Part shown: piece after piece, positions 8,832 through 52,419 of the stretch
Position numbering within the stretch: the first letter of the stretch is position 1
Layout: each line of letters starts with the position of its first letter
NCBI GenBank assembly: GCA_001800315.1
Contig: MGVE01000007.1
Location: 62,001-126,000, forward strand
DNA length: 64,000 nt
Direction of reading: 5' to 3'
Origin: Elusimicrobia bacterium RIFOXYA2_FULL_47_53
Lineage (GTDB): Bacteria > Elusimicrobiota > Endomicrobiia > Endomicrobiales > XYA2-FULL-47-53
The notes under the pieces: model-generated
What the model was told of the DNA's origin: nothing
Seen by the model: the letters and a program-made list of their open reading frames with translations, nothing else
Databases searched by the model: none
Made by a program: the position numbers and the translations under genes

Positions 8832-9707
8832 TTACGAAATAAGGCCGTAATTCCTCATGGCCTTTTCCAGCTTGAGTTTGTTGGCGTCTTCTATCTGTGT
8901 CAGCGGAAGCCGCAGCTCCGCTCCGCAAAGCCCCATAAGCGACATCGCCGTCTTAACCGGTATCGGATTGGTTTCAACAAACATGGCTTTGACAAGCGGC
9001 AGCAGTTTGTAATGCAGTTTCAGGGCTTTCTTGTGGTCGCCCGACAGCCAGGCCGCTACCATATCCGAGGTGTCTTTCGGCACGATGTTGGCCACCACCG
9101 AAATCACGCCGCTGCCACCGATGGAAAGCACCGGCAGGGTAAGCGCGTCGTCTCCGGAGAGCAGGTCAATTTCCGGAGCCAGAGCCTTAACCTGCGACAT
9201 CTGGTCAAGCGACCCCGAGGCCTCTTTTACCGCCACGACATTTTTGTGGTCTTTAGCGATTTTGGCTATCGTTTCCGGCTCCATATTGACCGCGGTGCGG
9301 CTCTGTATATTATATAGAATTATCGGGATCTTCACCGATTTCGCCACCTCGGAGAAATGCATGTAGAGACCCTTTTGCGTCGGCTTGTTGTAGTAGGGAG
9401 CGATAAGCAGTGCTCCGTCGCAGCCGGCTTTTTCAGCGAACTGCGTCAGCATTATAGCTTCCGCGGTATTGTTTGAGCCGGTGCCGGCGATGACCTTTAC
9501 TCTTTTAGCGGCGAATTTAACCGTCAGAGATATGACTTCCTCGTGCTCTTCGTACGAAAGAGTCGCCGACTCTCCCGTGGTACCGCAGGGCACTATACCC
9601 GAGGTGCCGTTCTCAACATGAAACTCCACGAGTTCCCTGAGCTTATCGGCATCTATTTTATTGTTCTTAAACGGTGTAACAAGGGCTACTATTGAACCGG
9701 AAAACAT
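8832..9707 (-). CDS. dapA: 4-hydroxy-tetrahydrodipicolinate synthase
   Basis: This class I aldolase of 291 residues condenses pyruvate with aspartate semialdehyde. Signatures are GSIVALVTPF, VPCGTTGESATLSYEEH near residue 40, LIAPYYNKPTQKGLYMHF (catalytic Tyr), the Schiff-base lysine in VVAVKEASG near residue 161, and SGDDALTLP followed by GGSGVISVVANI. The length and motifs are standard. GGGAGG precedes the ATG. It follows dapF by 36 bases. No lysine-binding leader precedes the operon, so feedback regulation, if any, would be at the enzyme level. Confidence 0.97.
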   Translation of the reverse strand: MFSGSIVALVTPFKNNKIDADKLRELVEFHVENGTSGIVPCGTTGESATLSYEEHEEVISLTVKFAAKRVKVIAGTGSNNTAEAIMLTQFAEKAGCDGALLIAPYYNKPTQKGLYMHFSEVAKSVKIPIILYNIQSRTAVNMEPETIAKIAKDHKNVVAVKEASGSLDQMSQVKALAPEIDLLSGDDALTLPVLSIGGSGVISVVANIVPKDTSDMVAAWLSGDHKKALKLHYKLLPLVKAMFVETNPIPVKTAMSLMGLCGAELRLPLTQIEDANKLKLEKAMRNYGLIS

Positions 9708-36773: not shown

Positions 36774-36863
36774 GTCATTGTGATCTCCCGAAGAGAGAGA
36801 AGCAATCTTGGCTTTCCGTCGGCAACGACGAGATTGCTTCGTCGCTACGCTCCTCGCAAAGAC
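36774..36863. repeat. MITE-like palindromic dispersed repeat
   Basis: The element runs from GTCATTGTGA to TCGCAAAGAC. Inner arms AGCAATCT and AGATTGCT flank a spacer of about 22 bases, and the outer ends are roughly complementary. It resembles the short GTCATTGCGA...GCAATCTC hairpin elements scattered through many bacterial genomes. Copy number cannot be judged from one window. Confidence 0.6.
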
Positions 36864-36913
36864 GGGCTGAAACACTTTTTCAGCTGACTCAATTTGGGCA
36901 GCCATTACTTTTG

Positions 36914-37237
36914 CCAAAACAAAAGGAGCGCTGACAGTTTCCTGTACGCTCCTGCTTTTATCAAAATTTGGTGGAGCTGAGCAGCGACAAGCGCGGCGAA
37001 TAGGCCGCGCTGCGCCATGGAGCGGGCGAGCGTCGGCGCGAGCCCTGAACCGCCGACCTCTTTGCGGCGGTATCCCCAAAACAAAAGGAGCGCTGACAGT
37101 TTCCTGTACGCTCCCGCTTTTATCAAAATTTGGTGGAGCTGAGCAGCGACAGGCGCGGCGAATAGGCCGCGCTGCGACCTGGAGCGGGCGAGCGTCGGCG
37201 CGAGCCCTGAACCGCCGACCTCTTTGCGGCGGTATCC
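36914..37237. repeat. 162-bp tandem repeat derived from tRNA-Ala 3' end and terminator (two full copies)
   Basis: Copies at 36914-37075 and 37076-37237 differ at only four positions. A third, partial copy (37238-37307) merges into the tRNA-Ala gene. Read on the minus strand, each unit contains a 17-base piece of the tRNA (AAGAGGTCGGCGGTTCA), a GC-rich palindromic insert of about 63 bases, the tRNA 3' end (CTCAGCTCCACCA), and the same downstream terminator hairpin. The insert holds a perfect GCGCGGC/GCCGCGC stem (36991-37010 and 37153-37172). The units are thus tRNA 3' fragments interrupted in the T arm. Confidence 0.9.
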
Positions 37238-37239
37238 CC

Positions 37240-37276
37240 AAAACAAAAGGAGCGCTGACAGTTTCCTGTACGCTCC
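37240..37276 (-). terminator. Intrinsic terminator of the tRNA-Ala gene
   Basis: On the minus strand, a GGAGCG/CGCTCC stem with inner ACAG/CTGT pairing is followed by TTTTGTTTT, about 17 bases after the tRNA CCA. The same hairpin recurs in both tandem repeat copies downstream. Confidence 0.85.
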
Positions 37277-37292
37277 TGCTTTTATCAAAATT

Positions 37293-37368
37293 TGGTGGAG
37301 CTGAGCGGGATTGAACCGCCGACCTCTTCCTTGCCGAGGAAGCGCTCTCCCAGCTGAGCTACAGCCCC
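37293..37368 (-). tRNA. tRNA-Ala (anticodon GGC, with C33)
   Basis: The 76-base cloverleaf has encoded CCA. The acceptor stem GGGGCTG pairs with CAGCTCC and contains the G3-U70 wobble that specifies alanine. The D arm is GCTC/GAGC with GG in the loop, and the T loop is TTCAATC. The anticodon stem CTTCC/GGAAG is perfect, enclosing loop TCGGCAA. The anticodon GGC reads Ala GCC/GCU codons. Position 33 is C instead of the nearly universal U, which is unusual. The gene has its own promoter and terminator, and its 3' end seeds the adjacent tandem array. Confidence 0.93.
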
Positions 37369-52235: not shown

Positions 52236-52333
52236 ATGACTTACAACTTATGACTTACAACTTATGACTTACAACTTACCACTTACAACTTATGACTTAC
52301 AACTTATGACTTACAACTTACCACTTACAACTG
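52236..52333. repeat. Heptamer-based minisatellite (7 x 14 bp)
   Basis: Seven tandem 14-base units lie here: ATGACTTACAACTT (five copies) and ACCACTTACAACTT (two), in the order A A A B A A B. On the minus strand each unit is two heptamers of the form AAGTNNT, so the array is about 14 heptamers with a 42-base higher-order period. It lies between the citrate-synthase-like gene and the tRNA-Met 3' end. Confidence 0.9.
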
Positions 52334-52341
52334 CATTTAAA

Positions 52342-52413
52342 TGGCAGGGGTGAGATTTGAACTCACGACCAACGGCTTATGAGTCCGCTGCTCTACCACT
52401 GAGCTACCCTGCC
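52342..52413 (-). tRNA. tRNA with CAT anticodon (elongator Met, or Ile2)
   Basis: The 72-base cloverleaf lacks an encoded CCA. The acceptor GGCAGGG pairs with CCCTGCC, the D stem is GCTC/GAGC, the anticodon loop is CTCATAA with anticodon CAT, and the T arm is GTGAG TTCAAAT CTCAC. The anticodon stem has a terminal A-G mismatch (31-39). The first acceptor pair is fully matched, so it is not an initiator. Met and lysidine-modified Ile2 cannot be separated with certainty by eye. It begins six bases after the CBS-protein stop codon. Confidence 0.92.
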
Positions 52414-52419
52414 AACCGT

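Follow-up and report, generated by a model that had tools for sequence, protein, structure and literature searches.

The array at the tRNA-Ala gene

The intact tRNA-Ala(GGC) gene in the window (the whole 64,000-nt stretch of Elusimicrobia bacterium RIFOXYA2_FULL_47_53 DNA analysed here) carries on its 3′ side an array in which pieces of the tRNA recur around a GC-rich insert. What is this insert, and how did it come to be repeated beside a tRNA? A preliminary description of the locus offered two origins, a minimal satellite element using the tRNA as its attachment site, or serial slippage after a single hairpin insertion.

The array was located by TRF at 36914-37306, with a period of 162, 97% matches and 2.4 copies, a unit number that is as assembled in a draft genome of 20 contigs. 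The two full units are 98% identical and differ at four positions (36953/37115, 36990/37152, 37015/37177 and 37017/37179), while the 69-bp partial unit has the same sequence as unit 1. On the tRNA strand, each unit reads from the variable region and 5′ half of the T-arm (AAGAGGTCGGCGGTTCA) into the reverse complement of the 63-bp insert, then into the 3′ part of the T-arm, acceptor and CCA (GCTCAGCTCCACCA), and finally the terminator hairpin. The features of the array are as follows, with the insert termed element E:

37293..37368, minus strand: intact tRNA-Ala(GGC) with encoded CCA (ARAGORN; Rfam RF00005, 61 bits)
37240..37276, minus strand: tRNA-Ala terminator hairpin GGAGCG...CGCTCC followed by a T-rich run, adjoining the intact tRNA (from the sequence; repeat family D2)
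37078-37114 and 36916-36952: further terminator hairpin copies, on the same basis
36914..37075, no strand: 162-bp unit 1, the outermost
37076..37237, no strand: 162-bp unit 2, with four differences from unit 1
37238..37306, no strand: partial third unit, terminator plus tRNA 3′ end, continuing into the intact tRNA
36983..37045, plus strand: element E copy 1, a double hairpin (covariance models R1, 90 bits, and R2, 86 bits; covariation)
37145..37207, plus strand: element E copy 2 (R1, 85 bits; R2, 83 bits)
36967..36982, minus strand: duplicate of the tRNA 3′ end, GCTCAGCTCCACCAAA, abutting E copy 1; second copy at 37129-37144
37046..37062, minus strand: duplicated 5′ half of the T-arm with the variable region, AAGAGGTCGGCGGTTCA, flanking E at its opposite end (repeat family D3); second copy at 37208-37224
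37050..37070, minus strand: fold-back hairpin CCGCCG-n9-CGGCGG in place of the rest of the tRNA copy (from the sequence)

TRF, ARAGORN, Rfam and the comparison of units thus bear out the described layout, two nearly identical units and a partial third running into the intact tRNA, and the make-up of the unit is also as described. The D-arm and most of the anticodon arm have been lost from the tRNA-Ala copy, and a short fold-back hairpin stands in place of its remaining 5′ part. The direct repeat at this locus lies within 0-1 nt of the start of E. An assembly artefact is unlikely, because the units differ from each other and the array is internal to one contig. Chance is excluded for the window copies, since a pattern based on the insert matched twice in the window and never in 100 shuffles.

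Two further repeats were seen in the window. Just outside the array, at 36799-36866, is a palindrome that looks dispersed, GAAGCAATC...GATTGCTTCGTCGCTACGCTCCTCGCAA, and about seven copies of a 14-bp tandem repeat, ATGACTTACAACTT, occupy 52236-52332, directly beside the tRNA-Met at 52341-52414.

Element E is a dispersed family

BLASTN against the home genome returned diverged relatives of E at three places on contig C8, with 75-79% identity over 62-70 bp and E-values down to 4e-10. These copies lie near tRNA-Arg(CCG) and are accompanied by duplicated pieces of it. The same search of 100 relatives gave no match outside the home genome, so that covariance models were needed. A first model, built from five copies, found more at home and in other genomes; a second was then built from ten copies. 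In the home genome the second model gave 8 strong matches (72-89 bits) and about 22 weaker ones (24-43 bits), the weaker set, like many of the matches across the phylum, depending on a model built from strong copies. Matches were obtained in 26 of 341 genomes of the phylum Elusimicrobiota at an E-value of ≤ 0.02, and a search of 394 relatives, 53 of them beyond those 341, listed matches only within this phylum. A scan of genome contigs yielded one true match, in Elusimicrobia bacterium UBA5214.

Several other candidates were discarded. The two remaining matches of the contig scan score as chance, two pattern matches in the home genome (C11:130319 and 132755) look like a protein-coding repeat, and 31 viral matches to a loose pattern, all below 20 bits, were taken as chance; stricter patterns matched nothing in viral sequences. 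BLASTN of E in phages and plasmids likewise returned nothing.

The insert therefore does occur elsewhere, as a dispersed family, and a proposal confined to local events is extremely improbable. In that proposal a single hairpin insertion was followed by slippage or unequal crossing-over, and any likeness to other loci is a convergence of GC-rich hairpins. The C8 matches, together with covariance-model scores that reach 88.7 bits for a home copy and 86.6 bits for a copy in a different genome of the phylum, refute it for the insert. For the 162-bp repetition alone it may hold. With units 98% identical and a similar array of 160 bp at a tRNA-Ser gene of another genus (G076), the repetition appears to have arisen when a tRNA piece containing E underwent ordinary tandem duplication. 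Serial slippage may thus stand for the repetition, while the idea of a one-off insertion does not.

A double hairpin with exchangeable G·A steps

In an alignment of 51 copies, E spans 57-66 nt and comprises two unlike hairpins; some copies of E have an additional one. E is a double hairpin, consisting of a stem P1, a stem P2 closed by the loop GAATAA or GAATAG, a 3′-side bulge of 6-7 nt, and a second hairpin with G·A steps. Copy 1 of the window has the loop GAATAG and the tandem-GA hairpin GGGC-GA-GCG-TCGG-CGC-GA-GCCC.

Among 44 distinct sequences, both sides change in 19 of 21 pairs, and 132 double-change cells were counted against 38 ± 5 after shuffling and at most 26 in slid controls; these counts are biased towards the structure by an alignment fitted to the covariance model, and covariation also holds on the first, unfitted alignment of five sequences. 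The P1 step is Watson-Crick or wobble in 32 sequences and tandem GA/GA in the other 12, so that all 44 have one or the other, and the P2 step is GA/GA in 22 sequences and otherwise mostly Watson-Crick. The GA/GA steps were never seen as TC/TC, indicating that the strand given for E is the folded strand. In silico, E folds both as RNA and as single-stranded DNA.

Rfam 15 contains no family for E: the window array gave only the tRNA and sub-threshold matches, and six other loci gave nothing at E. No earlier description of the family was found in the literature searched, which lay mostly outside subscription journals, and E is apparently a family without one.

Element E in copies of tRNA genes

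The preliminary description proposed looking for the insert beside other tRNA genes, and 16 of the 30 home copies do lie at tRNA loci. Thirteen have a tRNA gene no more than about 350 nt away, and the other three are in loci with tRNA fragments (C8 and C13). The probability of so many copies near tRNAs by chance is below 1e-14 in a simple binomial with 50 tRNAs assumed, and 1.5e-19 was computed for 15 copies.

Direct repeats of a tRNA end, perfect over 11-42 bp, stop exactly at the start of E in 11 loci, the second copy of each repeat continuing into the intact tRNA or its edge; about five further loci, that of the window included, have near-perfect repeats. The mature tRNA end lies no more than 1-2 nt from the start of several of these repeats. 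The tRNAs concerned include Ala, Ser, Glu, Gln, Thr, Gly, Leu and Asn, with Arg at C8 and two loci that have a 6-nt offset. The insertion points fall in the D-loop, the acceptor/D junction, the variable loop, the T-loop, the edge of the anticodon loop and the T/acceptor junction, and E occurs in both orientations relative to the tRNA. A few points lie inside tRNA stems (L121 and L123), which counts against landing at loops and junctions. A mirror layout, with the fragment on the opposite side of E, is seen in the second copy in L141, in C13 and in G098.

The inserts at tRNA loci are about 90-180 bp long. The tail that follows E keeps remainders of the same tRNA, namely the Glu anticodon arm in L138 and the Ala anticodon arm in L218, so that E seems to interrupt a duplicated copy of the tRNA. 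In the duplicated part the outer portion is perfect and the inner portion degenerate, an asymmetry that simple duplication and neutral decay do not explain and that counts against our preferred explanation, given below.

A retrotransposition-like insertion of an E-containing RNA, with long and variable target-site duplications, could also leave behind direct repeats that differ in length and stop right at E, several of them starting within 1-2 nt of a mature tRNA end. The same-tRNA remainders in the tails point instead to duplication of a tRNA copy, and the copies in REP loops described below lack such repeats, making this route very improbable.

Other features were noted around the E copies at tRNA loci. 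A gene for a Fic-like protein (L020 7189-8313) lies between two E copies at a tRNA-Arg locus. On C13 of the home genome, a structured block of about 300 nt (L100 ~8860-9190, minus strand) is bounded by CTCTGGTGGAGC, which resembles the 5′ start of tRNA-Asn, and by CCTACCACCAGAG, a tRNA-Asn 3′ end, and could be taken for another large insert in a tRNA-Asn copy. A long inverted-repeat element with GAATAATCCCCGAAACCAAAACTC arms around about 120-160 nt occurs twice beside E copies on the same contig (L100 3655-3930 and 8664-8861).

Element E in REP palindromes

The remaining 14 home copies are near-identical and sit inside palindromes of the form (C)GTCATTCCTGC-loop-GCAGGAATCCA. CGTC REPs have been described as having an 8-bp stem, a 4-5-nt loop and a CCA tail (PMC3733652), and the host palindromes fit this description. 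A pattern for the short-gap palindrome matched 57 times in the genome, against 0 for the reversed control. The filled palindromes have the arm variants CCTGC/GCAGG and CCTGT/ACAGG, both of which are also found empty, and the E core hardly changes between them; together these observations favour separate insertions. No direct repeats like those at the tRNA loci are present at the REP-loop copies. By eye, copies on C13 and C8 seem to be nested in the second hairpin of another E.

These locations bear on whether E is an attachment site, through which small circular elements, in the manner of islands and satellites, recombine site-specifically into tRNA genes and leave the tRNA whole. The order tRNA fragment, E, tail, intact tRNA, in which fragment and intact tRNA share a perfect segment as far as E, would suit such integration, and pairs of E copies bracket 1.6 kb with the Fic-like gene (C8) and 3.9 kb (C13). 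The shared segment varies in length, though, as does the insertion point, most loci have neither cargo nor integrase, and the REP-loop copies have no such repeat, so that this origin is improbable. The inserts leave no room for an integrase, and none was noticed by eye in the open reading frames near the window array and the C8 copies, in agreement with its stated absence from the array. Nor, by eye, do the aligned ends of E (AGCGAC.../...GAGCCC or GGCCGC.../...GAGCGC) carry the paired integron attC cores RYYYAAC and GTTRRRY. Of the proposed satellite, then, the mobile hairpin is supported by a dispersed family strongly tied to tRNA genes, while the classical attachment-site and integrase scheme is unsupported in view of the varying insertion point, the two orientations and the 14 of 30 copies in REP loops.

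Filled and empty sites in relatives

In four congeners of genus g13, E takes three arrangements at one orthologous tRNA-Ala(GGC) locus. It lies in the variable loop of the upstream tRNA copy in G052, in the D-loop of the upstream copy in G053, and downstream, between an arm of the terminator hairpin and the tRNA 3′ part, in G065 (twice) and G076 (once). Its presence is scattered among close relatives. The window locus, where an rsmD-like gene adjoins tRNA-Ala(GGC), was compared in the four other genomes with both genes adjacent (G002, G003, G004 and G007, from three other families of the order), and no E match was found in any of them; the orthologous locus of G004 has a clean short spacer. 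In G002 the orthologous tRNA-Ala locus (L231 ~920-1050) holds a GC-rich hairpin block other than E, again terminated by a duplicated tRNA 3′ end, and other hairpin families may use the same layout.

Could E instead be a structured RNA with a function, for instance in processing or regulation linked to tRNA transcription, so that selection keeps the copies near tRNAs? The very strong covariation is in keeping with this, as is a similar E and tail, GGAACCRACTCCTGGCA, beside tRNA-Ser genes in several genera. In two genomes, by eye, a TTGACA/TATAAT-type promoter-like sequence also precedes the E-bearing fragment and not the intact tRNA. Such a role is nevertheless rather unlikely for an element found with eight or more tRNA types, in both orientations and at several insertion points, with 14 of its 30 home copies in REP loops, a scattered presence in close relatives and differing arrangements at one orthologous locus.

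Relation to known repeats

The closest known systems to E are mitochondrial double-hairpin elements and bacterial REPs. Double-hairpin elements, described in a review (PMC2800124) and in PMC5910586, which cites Paquin et al. 2000, are short GC-rich double hairpins, dispersed, suggested to be mobile and without coding capacity. E is likewise a dispersed GC-rich double hairpin with many copies, but it is bacterial rather than organellar, and the likeness is drawn from the general description of those elements. REPs and REPINs of the GTAG and CGTC families are short non-coding palindromic repeats of bacterial chromosomes (PMC3733652, PMC3116915), some of which have been reported within other palindromes (PMC3733652). 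E is also a short, palindromic, non-coding chromosomal repeat, but it is longer, has two different hairpins head-to-tail, sits in tRNA copies and is itself a guest in CGTC-REP loops. A REP is defined by a GTAG or CGTC tag at the foot of a single 20-40-nt hairpin, and no tag stands at the start of the 51 aligned E copies. Rickettsia palindromic elements, known from Rickettsia, resemble E as palindromic invaders of genes; they differ, by description, in invading mainly protein genes (PMC3733652). The loci of E resemble those of tRNA-integrating islands and satellites in pairing an intact tRNA with a tRNA fragment and sharing a segment at the junction. E differs in having no integrase, mostly no cargo and no fixed insertion point.

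Short hairpin repeats are common in bacteria, and how they spread and choose their targets is poorly known. E combines a clear fold rule, the exchange of G·A steps for base pairs, with a recognisable landing rule, hairpin loops and tRNA arms. Its filled and empty sites can be compared, which opens the question of what moves such repeats to testing, and E may be one way in which tRNA genes come to be duplicated and to decay.

A model for the spread of E

The explanation we prefer, and consider probable if well short of certain, makes E a non-autonomous mobile hairpin, which lands in the loops and junctions of other hairpins and persists where the tRNA copy it enters is a spare one; the window array would be the product of tandem duplication afterwards. 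One defined strand of about 57-66 nt folds into the double hairpin with tandem G·A steps, and in this model the folded single strand would probably be handled by a putative trans-acting enzyme. E would spread by insertion into loops and helix junctions of REP palindromes, tRNA arms, a tRNA terminator and, apparently, other E copies. An intact tRNA lies beside the E-bearing copy, which would be a dead duplicate, and insertions in tRNAs would survive only where a spare copy exists. In the window, a spare tRNA-Ala copy would have received E, in antisense orientation, within its T-arm. Tandem duplication of the piece made up of E, the tRNA 3′ end and the terminator, by way of the recurring tRNA and terminator sequence, may then have built the 162-bp array. 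We put forward tentatively that E may belong to a new class of mobile element in bacteria. Such an element would enter hairpin loops or junctions as a folded single strand, through some putative machinery, and would remodel tRNA loci to the order fragment, element, intact tRNA.

In the genomes compared, no transposition event was seen and no helper enzyme was found. The Y1/RAYT family (PF01797) is weakly commoner with E, occurring in 18 of 26 E-bearing against 151 of 315 E-free genomes. On these data RAYT was rejected as an obligatory helper, as the single-contig genome G014 contains E and gives no Y1 match. In the home genome, a different repeat, TTAGTTGCACACCTATCTCAATGGGCGGGG..., rather than E, flanks a RAYT-like Y1 transposase gene (L226 2376-3038).
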